From Bacteroides sp. 519 (lineage in GTDB: Bacteria > Bacteroidota > Bacteroidia > Bacteroidales > Bacteroidaceae), in the NCBI RefSeq assembly GCF_010500955.1, contig NZ_QVMJ01000021.1, forward strand, positions 1-64,000: DNA of 64,000 bases, read 5' to 3'. The position numbers and the translations under genes are program-made. How positions within the stretch are numbered: the first letter of the stretch is position 1; the number at the start of each line of letters is the position of its first letter. Shown in pieces: positions 3,369 to 59,959 of the stretch. The notes under the pieces are model-generated. The model was not told the origin of the DNA. It did not search any database and saw only the letters and a program-made list of their open reading frames with translations.

Positions 3369-6300
3369 TTATATCTTTGGTTCCTCTATTATACTACCAT
3401 ACCTGTGATACTCGTACGAGATGCTTTGTTCTTTCAGATAATGCAATATCTCGATACGACCTTCTGCAACAGGTTTTTCTGTGGCAATGTACATTCCCAG
3501 TTCTGCCGCTTTATCAAAAATGGCATCGGGTATATCGGCCGAGCAGGTACGAATGCGATCAAACTTCACCATATCTTCAATGAAATCTTCGTCATTATAT
3601 AAGCCAAGTTCAAAGTTGTTCGTCTTTTTGGCAATTGCTTTCAGAATTTCAATATGCGGATTTGTGGGCGATATTGCCAACAATACCTTTGTTTTTGTTT
3701 TACCAGCAGCATATAATGATAAAATAACATCGGTCAGATTATCGGTATCTTTCACATAAAAAGCAACCAGTTTTAATGGCAAATAGCGGAATGTATTTAG
3801 TTCGCCTACAATATGGCTGACATCACGCTCTACCGAAAACTCTTCTTTCCATGCTTTCTCGAATGTACCAAATGCGTATTTCAGTCTGTTAATTTCCTGG
3901 GGCGAAAGAATATCTTTCAATTCTTCTTTGAAAGGATACAACGCTTTTTCAGGCATTTCCTGAATTTCTTTCTCCGTAAATTTCACGAAGCAGGAAACAT
4001 AATTCGGTCCACCGGCTTTAATACCAGCACCAAAGGCCGACCGTTTCATACCCCCAAATGGCTGTCGGCGTACAATTGCCCCAGTGATGCCCCGGTTTAT
4101 ATAAAGGTTACCAGCTTCAATTTTATCTTTCCAAAGGGCAATTTCTCTTTCATCCAATGATTGCAGCCCCGAAGTTAATCCGTATTCTGTGGAGTTGGCA
4201 TATTCCAGTCCCTGTTCCAAATCGTCAATGCAAACAACAGATAGTAATGGTGCAAACAATTCGGTACGGAATGTGTAATTACCCGGTTTTACTCCCCATT
4301 TTACACAAGGCTTAAGTATGTATTTCTTTTCATCAAGGAATACGGGCGGCACTAACCAGAACTCTCCTTCTTCCAAGTGTTCTATTGCATGCAGCAACTT
4401 ATCATTGTCGTTGGTAATCATTGGGCCGATAATGTTATCGGTATTCCATACATTACCTGTATGCATACTGGTAACTGCATCTTTTAACTTCGACTGAAAT
4501 ACAGGATCATTGTATGCTTTTTTATCTAACAAGAGAAGCGAACAAGCCGAGCATTTTTGTCCGGCATTGCTGAATGCCGAGGATACAATATTCAGGATTG
4601 CATGATCCTGATCGGCACTTGCTGTTACAATAATTGCATTTTTACCACCCGTTTCGGCTGATAATGGAGTCTTAGGACTGTTCTTTTGTAACTTGAAGGC
4701 TGTATCTGTTCCTCCGGTTAAAATAATATGTTTTATACTTGGGTGTGCCGATAACCAGTTGAGCGAACTTCTGTCGGCGGGACATATTACCTGTAATGCA
4801 TCTTTGGGTACACCTGCATCCCAAAAACATTGGGCAAATTGCCAAGCTATAGGAAATGCAACTGTTGCAGGTTTCAGAATAACCGTATTGCCTCCGGCTA
4901 AACCAGCTACAACACCACCTACAGGTATAGCGAAAGGAAAGTTCCAAGGCGGAATCACAAGAATAATTCCTTTGGGAGCATAAGTAACAGACTCTAATTG
5001 CTCAAATGCCTGCATGGAAATCGGGTAGAAACGGCAGAAGTCTGTACCCTCGGACACTTCTATATCGCCTTCCATAAATGTTTTTCCGGTAATGGCAGAC
5101 ATACATGCAATCAGGTCACCACGACGCTCGCCAATCACTTCGGCTGTTTTATGGAGTATCTTGTTCCGATTTTCTAACGATGTTTTTCTCCATCCAGAAT
5201 CATCTTTTTCTGCTATCTGTACTATCTCTTCAATCTGTTCCTGAGTAGCCATGTTTACTTCGCAGAAACAAACTTCATCATTCCGGCTTCTGTCGTAGTA
5301 TTTCTTTTTCTTTTCGGTGATAACTTCTTTGTTGCCTATCTGAACCGGAATAATAAAGTTGGTGTCTCTTACTTCTGTTTCCCATTTCTTCAAGGCTTCT
5401 AAAGCCCACATCCTGTTTGGTTTTAAATCCAGATCGGTATCAGGCTCGTTTCTGAACACATTAATATCGGCAACAGGCTCCGGTTGTTGGGTTCTGTTTT
5501 GTGTGCGGAACTTGGTAGGCTTTACGTTGTCTTTCTGTGCATACGCTTCTGCAAATTGATTGGAAAGAAACTCCCATTCTTTGCTGTGTAATGTCAGGTT
5601 GAATGAATAAGTCAGGAAGTTATCTATGCCGGTATTCTCGTCTAAGCGACGAACCAGGTACGATACTGCATTCAGGAAATGTTCTTTCTTTACCACTGGT
5701 GTGTATAAAATAACCTGTTTGCCCAATTCTCTCATTGCACGGGGCAAATGGTTGGCCATTCCTTCGAGCATCTCAAAAGTAACATACTCTTCTACAGCGT
5801 TTGCTTTACTTAATAAATATGCGTATCCAATGGTAAAGAAGTTGTGCGAGGCAACTCCCATATGCACAACTTTGGCATTTTCAGGCTGTAAAGCTATGTC
5901 CAGAATGCGCATATAATTGGCGTCAACATCTACTTTGCTGGGTAAAATAGGGTTTGGCCATCCTTTTAACGAAGACTGAATGGTTTCCATTTGCAGGTTT
6001 GCCCCTTTCACTAAACGTACTTTGATTGGTGCTCCTCCGTTGGCAACACGCTTTTTTGCAAAATCCAGAAGTGTTTGATAAAAGAAGATAGCATCAGGCA
6101 AATAAGCCTGCACTACAATACCTGCTGTATAATTTTTGAATTGCGGCAGTGCCATTACTGTGGTGAATACATCGAGGGTTAATTCCGCGTCTTTGTATTC
6201 TTCCATATCCAGATTAACAAATTTGGGCGTTTGTATTCCTGCATGATCGGTATATGGGTGGTTTATAGCCTGCTGATAGATGTTGGTCATTAGTTTACAC

Positions 6301-19399: not shown

Positions 19400-19407
19400 C
19401 AAAGCTA
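19400..19407 (-). promoter_or_regulatory. -7 promoter box for the DUF6263-like gene
   Basis: TAGCTTTG on the minus strand, 22 bases before the start codon and overlapping the stop codon of the upstream gene; an internal operon promoter. Confidence 0.4.
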
Positions 19408-20019
19408 AGTAAAAATTTCTTTTGCAACTATTTCGCTGCTTATTATTTTAACCTGATGTGTTGCTATATCTTGATTTCTCCTTACAGAAACAACGAAATA
19501 AATCCGTTCTCCTTGCTTCAAGTCAGATAACTCGCAATTCAGCTTAACAGTAGTGGTTCCCATATCACTGCTGCTATTTGTCCACAATAAATCTTTAGCT
19601 GCAATGTTATTGCCCCTCATGAGTTTAATTGTTGCAATGGATGACGAAGCCGAGAACTCAAAGTTTATATCAAGTGATATAGAACAATCATTCAAAATTC
19701 TTATCATGCTGTTTGCATCTTTGTTTTTTGAAACTTCCCATAAAGCCTGATGGTTTACAGCATAATTAAGATTCAGCCCTTTGTTCATAGCTGTTAACCT
19801 CATAGGCAGAATGTAGTCTACACCTCCTTCCATATCAAAATTAAATTTCTCTATAGATCCGGGCTGTTCGTCTGCTATCATCCAGCTGGCCATAATACTG
19901 TTGTTTTCTTTAACTTCGGATAGGTCTTCATAAAAATTCCCTTCCGGTTCCGAGTCACTGCACGAAGTGTATATCCAAACAGATATACATACTAAAAACA
20001 AATACAAAATACGTCTCAT
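19405..20019 (-). CDS. Hypothetical lipoprotein
   Basis: The 204-residue protein has a lipoprotein signal ending YTSC (Cys near 20). I do not recognise a domain. The middle is predicted beta-rich (VDYILPMRLTAM; KLNCELSDLKQGERIYFVVSV). It is the first gene of the operon that ends with the M20 peptidase, with a TAnnTTTG box 27 bases upstream. Confidence 0.7.
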   Translation of the reverse strand: MRRILYLFLVCISVWIYTSCSDSEPEGNFYEDLSEVKENNSIMASWMIADEQPGSIEKFNFDMEGGVDYILPMRLTAMNKGLNLNYAVNHQALWEVSKNKDANSMIRILNDCSISLDINFEFSASSSIATIKLMRGNNIAAKDLLWTNSSSDMGTTTVKLNCELSDLKQGERIYFVVSVRRNQDIATHQVKIISSEIVAKEIFT

Positions 20020-20161: not shown

Positions 20162-20264
20162 AAATGCAGTTCATTTGCACCTCAAATGCAGTTCATTTAC
20201 ACCTCAAATGCAGTTCATTTAGCATGCAAATGCAGTTCATTTAGGGTGCAAATGCAGTTCATTT
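20162..20264. repeat. Five-copy array of AAATGCAGTTCATTT at an exact 22-bp period
   Basis: Five identical copies start at 20162, 20184, 20206, 20228 and 20250. Each 15-mer is a partial palindrome (AAATG/CATTT). The 7-base spacers are GCACCTC, ACACCTC, AGCATGC and AGGGTGC; the first and last are nearly complementary. The array is followed directly by element 3. The gap 20020-20705 otherwise holds only a doubtful small frame and promoters. Confidence 0.95.
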
Positions 20265-20343
20265 GAGTTGAGAGTTGAGAATTGAGAGTTGAGAGTTACG
20301 ATGCCGCATGGAACTCTCAACTCTCAATTCTCAACTCTCAACT
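20265..20343. repeat. Near-perfect inverted repeat of GAGTTGA words with shared loop core (element 3)
   Basis: The left arm 20265-20297 is made of GAGTTGA/GAATTGA 7-mers and pairs with 20312-20343 over 32 consecutive bases. The loop is ACGATGCCGCATGG, containing the shared core (ATGCCGCAT at 20301-20309). It lies between divergent genes, so a simple terminator role is unlikely. Confidence 0.95.
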
Positions 20344-20420
20344 AGAGTATCAGCAGCAGTTTCTTTTCTATCTTTTTCTACTGATGTTTTCTTTTCTTTT
20401 CTTTTCTTTTCTGTTGCCAT
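20331..20420 (-). CDS. Doubtful small Lys-rich frame ending in a hairpin arm
   Basis: A 29-codon frame (MATEKKRKEKKTSVEKDRKE and nine more) contains the TTTTC tandem run in its coding sequence and takes its TGA stop from the right arm of element 3. A weak AAGGA lies about 16 bases upstream. It may be only a by-product of the low-complexity DNA. Confidence 0.2.
   Translation of the reverse strand: MATEKKRKEKKTSVEKDRKETAADTLVES
20387..20413. repeat. (TTTTC)n microsatellite
   Basis: About five tandem TTTTC units. The 5-bp unit would shift the reading frame of the small minus-strand frame on slippage. Confidence 0.7.
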
Positions 20421-20675
20421 GGTATTACCATTTTCCTTCTGCCAGCATTTGTTCGCGTTTTTCTTTCCGACTATACTGTGTTTAACTATCGTGTCATTGT
20501 AATTTTGCATAACCCGTGTAACATATTCAGACGAGATCAAGGGTTGCCATTTTCCATTCTATCTACAGTGAATAAACTGTGGTTGTACAACACATCATCA
20601 ATCTATTTACAACGAATGTTATACTTATGTGCAATCAATATCTACTTACATAATGGTTGTTATAAAATAATTATG

Positions 20676-20705: not shown

Positions 20706-21467
20706 ATGAGGATACTTTATTACATTTACCAAATTTGTATAGCTTTACCTATTTTATTAGTTCTTACTATTTTAACAGCTCTGGTAACTATAATCGGTTC
20801 ACTAATTGGCGGGGCACATATTTGGGGATACTATCCCGGTAAAATATGGTCGCAATTGATTTGTTTTTTTCTATTGATTCCTGTTAAGGTGAAAGGAAGA
20901 GAAAAAGTGAAGAAAAAAACATCGTATGTATTTGTTGCCAACCATCAGGGCGCTTTTGATATCTTTTTAATATATGGTTTCCTTGGACGTAACTTTAAAT
21001 GGATGATGAAAAAAAGTCTTCGCAAGATACCTTTTGTGGGCAAAGCCTGTGAAAGCGCCGGACATATATTTGTAGACCGTTCTGGGCCAAAGAAGATACT
21101 CGAAACAATAAAACAAGCCAGAGGATCGCTGAAAGATGGTATTTCGCTGGTTGTATTTCCTGAAGGTGCCCGCACTTTTACCGGACACATGGGCTATTTT
21201 AAAAAAGGAGCCTTTCAGCTGGCCGATGATTTGCAACTTACCGTTGTTCCTCTTACCATTGACGGATCATTTGAAATACTTCCCCGAACAGGTAAATGGA
21301 TACATCCTCATAAAATGGTTCTTACCATTCATGACCCTATCACACCCAAAGGAAAAGGTATTGAAAACATAAAAGCAACCATGGCCGAAGCATATAAAGC
21401 GGTTGAAAGTTCCTTGCCCGAGAAGAACAAAGGAATGATACTGAATGATGATCAGGAAGTAGAATAA
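20706..21467 (+). CDS. PlsC-like 1-acylglycerol-3-phosphate acyltransferase
   Basis: The 253-residue protein has an N-terminal membrane helix (about 8-35) and a PlsC domain. The catalytic block is NHQGAFD, a variant of the NHxxxxD motif, and the acyl-acceptor block is VFPEGAR; a third motif is VPLTIDGS. It should acylate lysophosphatidic acid in the inner membrane to make phosphatidic acid. Single gene with its own promoter. A perfect 19-bp palindrome sits 23 bases after its stop. Confidence 0.88.
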   Translation: MRILYYIYQICIALPILLVLTILTALVTIIGSLIGGAHIWGYYPGKIWSQLICFFLLIPVKVKGREKVKKKTSYVFVANHQGAFDIFLIYGFLGRNFKWMMKKSLRKIPFVGKACESAGHIFVDRSGPKKILETIKQARGSLKDGISLVVFPEGARTFTGHMGYFKKGAFQLADDLQLTVVPLTIDGSFEILPRTGKWIHPHKMVLTIHDPITPKGKGIENIKATMAEAYKAVESSLPEKNKGMILNDDQEVE

Positions 21468-39797: not shown

Positions 39798-39808
39798 TGG
39801 TTTGGTAG

Positions 39809-39913
39809 TTAGTAGCTAGTAGTTAGTAGCTAGTAGTTAGTAGTGGCTAGTTAGTGACTAGTAGTGTTAGATTCTGTTTAGCAACCTACTAGCTACTAAC
39901 TACTAGCTACTAA
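39809..39913. repeat. Inverted repeat of TAGTAGY words (same arm family as element 2)
   Basis: Arms 39809-39836 and 39886-39913 match perfectly over 28 bases and continue imperfectly on both sides. The unit words are TAGTAGC and TAGTAGT, as at 0.69-0.78 kb, but the loop lacks the ATGCGGCAT core. The right side reaches into the end of the FucI-like gene and supplies its stop codon. Confidence 0.92.
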
Positions 39914-41148
39914 CTACTAACTTGTTTACAAGAGTTCATTTGCAGAAATTCATGTAATACCTCTACATGATTTCCCATAAGTAGAATATGATGATTTCCT
40001 AAAGGGCTTTTCAGGAAATAATCTACAGGAGAATCCAGCCTTACACGTACTTGGGTACGACACATATCTATATAGCTGGTGTTTTCGTTGAGGAAACCGG
40101 AAGATACAAAATACTCGTCTAACGATTCGCCACCACATTTCAAAACAGTAACCTCTCCAATAGGTAACAATCCCTGAATGGCTATTCCCATTTCGGTTTC
40201 AAAGTGATTGCGGATAATATATTGGTTGGTTTGTTTTGTACCAATTGTGCAATGAGCTAATACAATATCATTATTAATAGTGTTTACCGAAGATGGGTTT
40301 GCCATGAATCCTGTTTCGGCAGTTACTGCTTTTGCTATTAATAGTGTAAATATAGATTGAAGATCGCCTTCGCATCCGGCCAGGATACCTTCGTCGTTCA
40401 GCAGTGAAAGAGCAAGACAGCCAGTGCTTCCTGTGCGTTCAATCAGTTTAAAACAGCTTAAGGTTATGGCTTTCAGGTTCTCTTCGTCGCATATCCTGCG
40501 TAAAGCTCTGTACAAACGCATGGCTTTTAATATATCTTCCGGCGATCCTTCTTTACAGGCTTTTGCTTTTGCTGCAAATTCGGCACAGGCTTCGCCTACT
40601 TCATCGTCGGTTATCTGATCGAAGTATTCGTATACACGATCTAAAGAGATATCTACATATTCAATACCCCAACGTCTTTTTGCCAGAAGATAATCTACAT
40701 TGCTTGCAATAAGCCAGGAAGAGGGTGCGCCGATAACGCCAATGCGGGTTCCTTCAAGTGCTCTTTGTGCTAAAAATGAATTAACCAGTAAGTCGATACG
40801 TTTTAGTACGGTTTCAGGATCACCGTGAAGGATTTCACTTTTCATACCTCTCGACCGAAACCATGCTGATGTTTCAAGGGCAGCAGCTAATGAGTTTTTA
40901 TTCCCGTCGGCCAGCAGAACTACCGGTTTGGGCAGGGATTCAAAACATTTCATCACTTTTCTTTCAACACCTCCGGTAGCAATAAATACCAGGCTGAAGT
41001 CATCCTTACTAAGCTTATCTATGTCCTTGTAATTGACTAGGTTTACACTATAATGTTTCTTTAATTCATTTAAAATGGTTTCATGACCTGCTGTTACATC
41101 GTCATTGTTGTTTAGAATAGAACTAAAAGTAATGAGATTTATAATCAT
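39910..41148 (-). CDS. L-fucose/arabinose isomerase-like protein
   Basis: The 412-residue protein resembles the FucI/AraA fold: an N-terminal Rossmann-like part (HETILNELKK, ATGGVERKVM) and the C-terminal half with GCEGDLQSIFT and HCTIGTK. It is shorter than classical FucI (about 590 residues) and has no sugar-catabolic neighbours, so its reaction is uncertain. An upstream TTG lies within the promoter box TACATTTG, so I chose the ATG at 41146-41148 (MIINLITFSS). The last codons, encoding VSS and the TAG stop, are made from a TAGTAG hairpin arm. Confidence 0.75.
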   Translation of the reverse strand: MIINLITFSSILNNNDDVTAGHETILNELKKHYSVNLVNYKDIDKLSKDDFSLVFIATGGVERKVMKCFESLPKPVVLLADGNKNSLAAALETSAWFRSRGMKSEILHGDPETVLKRIDLLVNSFLAQRALEGTRIGVIGAPSSWLIASNVDYLLAKRRWGIEYVDISLDRVYEYFDQITDDEVGEACAEFAAKAKACKEGSPEDILKAMRLYRALRRICDEENLKAITLSCFKLIERTGSTGCLALSLLNDEGILAGCEGDLQSIFTLLIAKAVTAETGFMANPSSVNTINNDIVLAHCTIGTKQTNQYIIRNHFETEMGIAIQGLLPIGEVTVLKCGGESLDEYFVSSGFLNENTSYIDMCRTQVRVRLDSPVDYFLKSPLGNHHILLMGNHVEVLHEFLQMNSCKQVSS

Positions 41149-41269: not shown

Positions 41270-41369
41270 CTATATAGAAGAGCAGTCTCGGTCTATATAG
41301 CACGGCCCTCTTGTTCTATATAGCACAGCCCCCTCGAGCTATATAGCTTCGACCCCTTGAACTATATAG
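41270..41369. repeat. Five-copy array of CTATATAG at an exact 23-bp period
   Basis: The palindrome CTATATAG starts at 41270, 41293, 41316, 41339 and 41362. The 15-base spacers differ but the middle ones are C-rich (GCACGGCCCTC, GCACAGCCCCC). It lies between the FucI-like and NigD-like genes and is not coding. Confidence 0.95.
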
Positions 41370-54252: not shown

Positions 54253-54448
54253 TGTGCCAATATGCCAATGTGAATAATGTGCCAATTGGCTGCGCATACA
54301 TTAGCATATTATTCACATTAGCACATTATTCCCATTAGCATATTGGCACATTAGCATATTGGCACATTGGCACATTAGCATATTGGCACATTAAAATTCA
54401 CATTAAAACATTGTCACATTGGCATATTGTCACATTGGCATATTAGAA
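54253..54448. repeat. Long cluster of CATTAGCATATTGGCA words
   Basis: About 195 bases consist almost only of variants of GTGCCAAT, ATGCCAAT, TTCACATT and TTAGCATATTGGCACA, in one orientation on the left (to about 54285) and the complement on the right, so one large and several nested hairpins are possible. The turn contains GGCTGCGCATAC, perhaps a decayed form of the shared core. It begins right after the kinase stop codon. Confidence 0.9.
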
Positions 54449-57112: not shown

Positions 57113-57166
57113 ACTCTTTAGTTTTATAGTTATACAAATTAAGCATGCAAATTGTTTGCCAAAAAT

Positions 57167-57267
57167 AAAGTGAGGTAAAGGAGATAAAGGAAATAAAGGA
57201 GATAAAGTTTCCATGCGGCATCGTTACTTTATCTCCTTTACCTACTCTACCTCCTTTACCTCACTTT
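57167..57267. repeat. Inverted repeat of GGAGATAAA words with shared loop core (element 5)
   Basis: Arms 57167-57208 and 57226-57267 match at 37 of 42 positions, made of GGAGATAAA 9-mers. The loop is TTCCATGCGGCATCGTT, with ATGCGGCAT at 57213-57221. It lies between purA and the Zn peptidase gene, on the same strand. Confidence 0.93.
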
Positions 57268-57281
57268 ACCTCCTCCTTCTA

Positions 57282-59813: not shown

Positions 59814-59959
59814 ATGAGTATGAGTTATGAGTTATGAGTTATGAGTATTGAGTTATGAGTATTGAGCTACAAAGTTAACAAATAAACCTGTAATTCATTA
59901 CTCAATACTCATTACTCACAACTCATTACTCACAACTCATTACTCACAACTCAATACTC
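59814..59959. repeat. Inverted repeat of ATGAGTT words enclosing a promoter box
   Basis: The left side (59814-59866) is ATGAGTT/ATGAGTA/TTGAGTT 7-mers; the right side (59896-59959) is CTCATTA/CTCACAA words. The 29-base loop contains a minus-strand -7 box (59870-59877). The right side provides the last codons and TGA stop of the DPP III gene. Confidence 0.92.
59870..59877 (-). promoter_or_regulatory. -7 promoter box for the AlkD-like gene, within a hairpin loop
   Basis: TAACTTTG on the minus strand, in the loop of the ATGAGTT inverted repeat, 56 bases before the start codon; the left arm would form the mRNA leader. Confidence 0.45.

Follow-up and report, generated by a model that had tools for sequence, protein, structure and literature searches.

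The replisome organizers and O-like initiators of phages such as lambda (protein O) and SPP1 have origin repeats within or beside their own genes, and R6K is an iteron plasmid with 22-bp repeats. DnaA boxes are not required in all iteron origins. REP and BIME are interspersed palindromic repeats, and REP palindromes are mobilised by the RAYT transposase. The RepA_N systems also belong to a mobile-element setting, and one RepA_N initiator is described as binding a semi-palindromic iteron (PMC7145576). The locus described below lies in a 64,000-nucleotide stretch of Bacteroides sp. 519 DNA (hereafter the window) and contains an array of 22-bp period beside the remnant of an initiator-like gene. 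Its intact relatives have the order gene, array, and primase-helicase gene and keep a constant pitch while the motif changes, and in the Bacteroides sp. 519 genome the arrays are dispersed and constrained in sequence.

The Array in the Window

The array (20162–20264, plus strand) consists of five identical copies of the 15-mer AAATGCAGTTCATTT starting at 20162, 20184, 20206, 20228, and 20250, with spacings of 22, 22, 22, and 22 bp both in the sequence and according to TRF, just as an earlier note on this DNA had described it. Each unit is a near-palindrome with 5-bp arms (AAATG and CATTT) and a 5-bp centre (CAGTT). The spacers are, in order, GCACCTC, ACACCTC, AGCATGC, and AGGGTGC. That they differ, as the note had stated, is correct within one array but not between arrays, where they are conserved by position (see below); the near-complementarity that it had seen between the first and the last spacer applies to 5 of 7 positions. 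It had also proposed that all copies face one side of the DNA, which is only roughly the case: with a helix of 10.5 bp per turn, 22 bp correspond to ~2.1 turns and successive units drift by ~34 degrees.

At its gene-side end (20264) the array directly adjoins a heptamer element, as previously noted, with the heptamer repeats beginning at the next base (20265–20297 in TRF). This element is a GAGTTGA/CTCAACT inverted repeat (20265–20343) whose 32-bp arms (20266–20297 and 20312–20343) are 100% complementary and enclose the loop ACGATGCCGCATGG; in the intact copy described below, the C-terminal half of the initiator gene takes up this position. It is followed by the remnant of a broken Lin1244_N-DUF7833 initiator gene (20338–20638, minus strand), which has its 3′ side towards the array and an 87.8% nucleotide match to the intact gene. 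Protein matches of the remnant on the minus strand (20298–20540 and 20540–20638) are in two frames with stops present and together cover amino acids 56–88 and 89–170 of 302. The flanking open frames encode 204 aa (19405–20019, minus strand) and 253 aa (20706–21467, plus strand).

Further hairpins and repeats were observed in the surroundings. The loop ACGATGCCGCATGG, its reverse complement, or a version with one mismatch is found in hairpins with different short-repeat stems, in the window at 20298–20311, 730–742, and 57211–57223 and elsewhere at loci L010–L027; beside the 22-bp arrays it has one orientation in 6 and the other in 7 of 13 copies, as if hairpins had been flipped. More long inverted repeats made from short tandem repeats (TTAGTAG, ATAAAGGAG, TATGAGT, and others) are located at 688–775, 39802–39922, 57166–57268, and 59821–59946 of the window, which also contains a degenerate ACATTAGC/ACATTGGC array with periods of 8 and 52 (54298–54446). 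MITE-like elements with ends resembling TTTGGTTCAAATCAG...CTGAACCAAA, recognised by eye, lie near or adjoin the arrays of L010, L012, L014, L018, L019, and L022, and several of them have hairpin interiors.

Dispersal in the Genome

The genome searched comprises 5.56 Mb in 180 contigs and is 99.9% complete. It contains 97 exact matches to AAATGCAGTTCATTT (64 forward, 33 reverse) compared to none for the reversed control, and the repetition thus is not a product of chance. The genome-wide search that the earlier note had suggested revealed recurrent 22-bp arrays, 21 in total, and instead of the scattered copies without fixed spacing that the note had named as contrary evidence, all 97 exact copies were found inside these arrays, with a period of exactly 22 bp. 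Five units are present in 18 arrays, six in 2, and four in 1. These 106 units include 95 that are exact in array sense, 2 with a flipped centre, and 9 with mismatches. In L017 and L027, the central 5 bp of the fifth unit are inverted (AAATGAACTGCATTT) and the arms unchanged. The spacers are largely conserved by position across arrays (GCACCTC, ACACCTC or ATACCTC, AGCATGC, and AGGGTGC), which indicates that the array spread as one block.

By predicted genes all 21 arrays are intergenic, 10 between divergent and 11, the intact module included, between co-oriented genes. Preferential insertion near promoters was considered and rejected, as the array sites resemble the local background with respect to both convergent gaps (0/20 array sites versus 6/74; p = 0.34) and divergent gaps (10/20 versus 21/74; p = 0.11).

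A strict two-unit AAATGCAGTTCATTT pattern had no match in 60 relatives, and a relaxed two-unit pattern matched a single isolated pair across 98 further genomes of the genus (partly the same genomes as the 60) and seven isolated sites in the collection of named genomes. This near-absence suggests that, as far as searched, the motif is private to Bacteroides sp. 519 or its close kin.

The Intact Module and Its Decayed Copies

A piece of the initiator gene is located beside the array in 15 of the 21 copies, always on the same side and on the opposite strand, its 3′ side facing the array; the remaining six arrays had no gene piece at E ≤ 1e-3. One copy is intact (L009 on contig C54). Its gene (3694–4602) encodes a protein of 302 aa with Pfam matches to Lin1244_N (PF14297; E = 1e-9; 39.4 bits, above the curated cut-off of 25) and DUF7833 (E = 1.2e-12), and its array (4602–4704) begins with the last base of the stop codon (4602). 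The array is followed on its 3′ side by a Toprim/DnaB_C primase-helicase gene and then by DUF4248 and HU-HIG genes, and the initiator gene is preceded on its 5′ side by a gene whose HTH and S24-peptidase matches are weak and fall below their cut-offs. Two intact paralogues on contigs C127 and C32 encode proteins with 61% and 56% identity to that of C54 and are followed by arrays of CTATATAG or near-CTATATAG palindromes at 22–23 bp, which start 33 and 29 bp past the stop.

The gene is broken in 14 of the 15 copies. Thirteen of these, including the window copy, retain a piece from approximately nucleotide 140–240 to 450–470, after which the heptamer hairpin replaces the C-terminal half; the fourteenth (L022) has a shorter gene piece and a TATATAG array in the hairpin's place. 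The remnants end between approximately aa 46 and aa 62, with this end inverted in L025, and L021, L024, L025, and L026 have up to ~190 bp of extra common sequence on the array side. The window copy is a deletion derivative whose initiator gene is broken and whose array has been kept.

The Initiator-Like Protein

The gene product consists of a Lin1244_N domain resembling a winged helix-turn-helix (wHTH), a linker, a DUF7833 domain, and a tail that is conserved in the homologue alignment. Its AlphaFold model (mean pLDDT 82.6, pTM 0.44) predicts a winged-helix-like N-terminal half, a low-confidence linker (125–164), a helical DUF7833 domain, and the tail. The PHROG family phrog_2562 (“replication initiation protein”) was matched by 31 of 43 aligned homologues, and fewer matched families named primosomal protein, O-like, or replisome organizer. 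Viral structures gave 11 matches at E ≤ 0.001, including Lin1244/Lin1753-like and replisome organizer proteins. Foldseek found none in the PDB at this threshold, and the PDB entries in VIA-align were middling wHTH matches with Z scores of 7.1 and below; 4pql (Z 6.3), which we take to be a RepA structure, and 4pt7 (Z 6.0) tied with many other wHTH proteins. The latter is one of the staphylococcal RepA structures according to the part of PMC7145576 used here; the RepA_N family treated there (PF06970) was not listed at E ≤ 0.001 in Pfam, which lists Lin1244_N and DUF7833. NCBIfam had no family for the three initiators of Bacteroides sp. 519 at E ≤ 0.001. A likeness to calmodulin in the sequences of solved structures (the best 60 of 96 matches at E ≤ 1 were calmodulins or their fusions; best E 0.0038) was rejected as spurious since these matches align one short stretch. 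As judged by homology (Lin1244_N, DUF7833, and phrog_2562), the gene adjacent to the arrays is likely to encode a replication initiator, as would be expected if the arrays are iterons.

Arrays Behind Homologous Genes

Of the 149 genomes of the genus, 57, including Bacteroides sp. 519, contain homologues of the initiator. A set of 52 genes, consisting of the 3 from this genome and 49 from relatives (29 with loci and 20 more, which are part of all matches), was analysed for tandem periodicities of 12–60 bp in the 230 bp past the stop by comparison with order-1 resampled sequences (200 each). A periodic array at p < 0.01 was found in 39 of the 52 (lag 22, n = 29; lag 44, n = 7; lag 23, n = 2; lag 45, n = 1), compared to 2 of 50 upstream 230-bp controls (lags 12 and 14; two genes had no usable upstream region) and 8 of 143 regions behind other open frames of at least 130 codons in these loci (100 resamples per region); 1 of the 8 was at lag 22. 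The remaining 13 homologues fail this threshold; some of them show a short array by eye, and 6 have a primase start close by. Constant-period direct repeats close to the initiator gene, a hallmark of iterons, are thus present in this family, with the window copy adjoining a gene remnant only. The 36 clearest arrays start at a median of 10.5 bp past the stop, have a median length of 5.5 units, and differ in motif between genes; under a loose criterion, 10 of their 36 unit consensuses lack a palindrome. A profile search placed a primase start at most 700 bp away for 37 of the 52 genes and for 31 of the 39 with arrays, compared to 21 of 52 with a stricter primase pattern. Taken together, the arrays past the stop in 39 of 52 homologues, their changing motif, and the near-empty controls suggest that they are iteron-like binding arrays of the initiator.

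One named case is a plasmid of Bacteroides ovatus BFG-107 (L183, NZ_CP081918.1), which has an array at lag 22 (p = 0.005). Its module encodes a Lin1244 protein, a primase/helicase, DUF4248, an ATP-binding protein, HU, and an amidase and lies between capsule-type glycosyltransferase genes. In the public annotation, this 22-bp array is covered by a short “hypothetical protein” (5780–5935 of L183, NZ_CP081918.1 184457–184612), which probably is not a gene. A phage collection contributed three unannotated contigs from faecal samples, two of which cover >80% of the query; the array test was positive at lag 22 for L185 (p = 0.005) and failed for L184 (p = 0.08). The viral contigs searched contained no relative. 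No array follows the full-length homologues outside the genus in G059 (three copies; another family) and G430 (two copies; a different genus of the same family), nor does one follow a related gene of G255. Among loci retrieved with the DUF7833 model, 0 of 14 passed (10 from other genera, 1 from the genus, and 3 other genes of Bacteroides sp. 519; stops were located by a crude script).

Motif similarity follows protein similarity over 32 arrays for both domains (Spearman 0.24–0.25). The proteins of C127 and C32 have a common motif and share 85% of DUF7833 and 68% of the wHTH, and the three proteins of this genome thus gave a hint that DUF7833 reads the motif. This candidate was not retained, as the domain-specific partial correlations over the 32 arrays (0.17 and 0.16; Mantel p 0.023 and 0.003) separate neither domain. 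The 60 bp past the array are richer in A + T in 32 of 36 cases (mean 0.62 versus 0.47), which would agree with strand opening but could also reflect the leader of the next gene. DnaA boxes (TTWTNCACA) are not in excess: 1 was found in 36 regions, each at most 500 bp long, where 0.96 would be expected.

Further Motif Families

The window contains a second orphan array (41270–41369; no strand assigned) of five exact CTATATAG units at exactly 23 bp, the motif found behind the paralogous initiator genes (L082, L083). Neighbouring exact CTATATAG pairs at 23 bp occur 194 times in the genome, equivalent to ~50 arrays, provided that most consist of five units. The pattern TATATAGC N14–15 TATATAGC was found 155 times in this genome, 11 times in G166, and 1–4 times in seven others among 149 genomes. 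Its reversed control had no match in Bacteroides sp. 519 and matched in some relatives, with as many as 15 matches in one of them, and single matches in the latter therefore mean little.

A third motif, GTGTGGCATT, is repeated at 22 bp behind the initiator genes of seven relatives (e.g., L104 and L107). Each of the seven has 19–44 neighbouring pairs (at most 2 mismatches), compared to 0, 0, 0, 0, and 1 in five genomes whose initiators have other motifs; the reversed control was 0 in all 12. The listed GTGTGGCATT places are scattered in G066, G081, G097, and G142 and, among the matches listed for it, in G071; G103 and G111 are represented by counts only. Of 20 stretches in G097 and G081, which represent 21 of the 25 places listed for both genomes (two known initiator arrays and two G081 places, one of them beside a Lin1244_N frame by coordinates, were left out), 19 have no initiator-like frame within ~2.4 kb and 1 overlaps a Lin1244_N frame. 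Six positions appear orthologous between G097 and G081, one of them between genes with domains read as TrpD and TrpG. In these six arrays the core is slightly better kept than the spacers (19/307 versus 31/297 mismatches; p = 0.076). When the two pairs that do not look orthologous are included, all eight pairs have 34/387 core and 63/371 spacer mismatches (p = 7e-4), with the core not below the flanks (436/5312, genes included). Dispersal seems to be a wider habit of such arrays, judging from the second family in this genome and the third motif found in several relatives.

Conservation of Orphan Arrays Beside Decayed Genes

In the 12 five-unit arrays beside a decayed gene, the 15-mers have 4/870 mismatches compared to 14/336 in the interleaved spacers (p = 1.3e-5) and 292/3152 in the gene remnants of 13 such copies (gene nucleotides only). 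The 15-mers thus are ~9 times less diverged than the spacers and ~20 times less than the remnants. The terminal branches of the remnant tree alone predict ~68 mismatches in the 15-mers, or 46 if the two longest branches are left out, and 26 in the spacers; the 15-mers have 4. These gene-only values replace an earlier remnant set that included hairpin arms and perhaps some flank (504/4106 in 13 copies, 70 changes expected). A larger set of 17 five-unit arrays, which leaves out L009, L015, L022, and L023 and skips two flipped units, gave 8/1245 mismatches in the 15-mers versus 23/476 in the spacers (p = 7e-8). Homogenisation of whole units does not explain the invariant 15-mers, since the spacers keep their positions. 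The simplest reading of near-invariant 15-mers beside decayed genes is that the sites of the orphan arrays seem to be still bound.

The earlier note had interpreted the array as the target of a cooperative DNA-binding protein, and this interpretation fits well with a period of 22 that is conserved behind dozens of homologous genes despite motif change and with 15-mers that are constrained while spacers and gene remnants drift. The one-face placement in that proposal is approximate, and the link to an initiator gene was not visible from the window.

Discussion

The window array probably is an orphan copy of the iteron-like binding array of a replication-initiator gene, and this assessment extends to the following mechanism and to binding in trans. 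Initiator dimers would bind each 15-bp near-palindrome and stack cooperatively along the array at 22 bp; they would then open the A + T-rich DNA beside it and load the neighbouring primase-helicase. The array of the intact module would thereby be a replication origin. Orphan arrays would, most simply, bind the initiator in trans as secondary origins or titration sites, and such binding would explain why their 15-mers do not decay. For these arrays we favour continued binding coupled to titration or secondary initiation, with no preference for either of the two. Counted against the explanation as a whole are the lack of a DnaA-box excess, the array-less homologues outside the genus, the 13 of 52 genes that failed the array test, the negative result for the 14 DUF7833-model loci (crude script), the much weaker constraint in the third family, and the chance that the A + T-rich stretch is simply the leader of the next gene.

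Other functions could also be envisaged for arrays that sit between an initiator and a primase gene. As an operator with an autoregulatory or operon-control role, the array would be bound by the Lin1244_N-DUF7833 protein or the upstream HTH/S24-like protein and control transcription into the primase-helicase gene, with the orphans regulating other genes. The location of the arrays between the initiator and primase genes, the intergenic position of 21/21 arrays (10 divergent, 11 co-oriented), and the array between the genes read as TrpD and TrpG in another species would agree with such a role. However, the sites are not enriched relative to the local background (convergent 0/20 versus 6/74, divergent 10/20 versus 21/74), of 19 arrays in two other species 6 are flanked by convergent genes and 2 overlap an open frame, and five to eight sites past a stop codon would be unusual for an operator, which makes this role unlikely. 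Proposing that the array acts as folded 3′ untranslated RNA draws on the stability of the window array in gene sense (−37.4 kcal/mol, z = −3.55; other strand z = −1.7), but z is below −2 in only 10 of 36 family arrays (median −0.9) and an RNA fold was therefore rejected as the conserved feature. What the family has in common is the 22-bp period and not a fold, and with 10 of 36 unit consensuses without a palindrome (loose criterion) we consider an RNA function highly improbable.

The initiator module might also have given rise to a MITE-like element of which the dispersed arrays are relics without present function. Their common deletion structure in 13 of 21 copies, the fourteenth with its shorter piece and TATATAG array, and the other repeat families adjoining several copies are what such an origin would leave behind. 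It is the conservation of the 15-mers, ~9 times below the spacers (p = 1.3e-5) and ~20 times below the remnants with 68 changes predicted and 4 seen, that renders a lack of function quite improbable, and gene conversion of whole units would have made the spacers uniform too.

If the arrays are indeed bound by the initiator, the chromosomes of the genus could harbour a trans-acting network in which the initiators of a few integrated modules bind dozens of orphan arrays maintained by selection, with lineage-specific motifs at a 22–23 bp pitch, and in which the replication machinery of mobile elements would have turned into a chromosome-wide means of secondary-origin firing, initiator titration, or gene regulation; we put this forward as a tentative possibility only. 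The results offer a function-linked reading for repeats that seem anonymous, propose a binding site for a protein with DUF7833 (function unknown according to Pfam), and predict replication origins for the primase-helicase/HU-HIG cluster that a named Bacteroides plasmid carries amid glycosyltransferase genes. With dozens of orphan copies whose core is conserved, the action of element initiators on the host chromosome in trans becomes testable. Among the matches listed from the open, non-subscription literature (titles and starts of abstracts), no description of such arrays was found.

Comparison with Known Systems

The RepA_N systems of staphylococcal plasmids and of the PLE satellite of Vibrio cholerae resemble the locus in the DNA-binding N-terminal domain of the initiator, in near-palindromic direct repeats as sites (predicted here), and in the mobile-element setting, as far as the part of PMC7145576 used here describes them. 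They differ from it in the protein families, which here are Lin1244_N and DUF7833 without a RepA_N match, and, relative to that same part of the source (PMC7145576), in that a primase-helicase gene is adjacent and a single chromosome carries dozens of orphan arrays. The replisome organizers and O-like initiators of phages are similar in the PHROG and viral-structure matches and in repeats adjoining the initiator gene, whereas here the cluster resides in bacterial chromosomes, with a plasmid as the named case and capsule-type glycosyltransferase genes around it, and keeps a strict 22-bp period while the motif changes. Iteron plasmids of the R6K type likewise have tandem repeats of one length beside an initiator gene that are likely read by the initiator, but the arrays described here are not known to be a plasmid origin and show no DnaA-box excess. 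With REP and BIME the arrays have in common short intergenic palindromes, many dispersed copies, and mosaic neighbours; they are distinguished by a source gene and array that can be traced to an intact module and by a near-fixed unit number and period.
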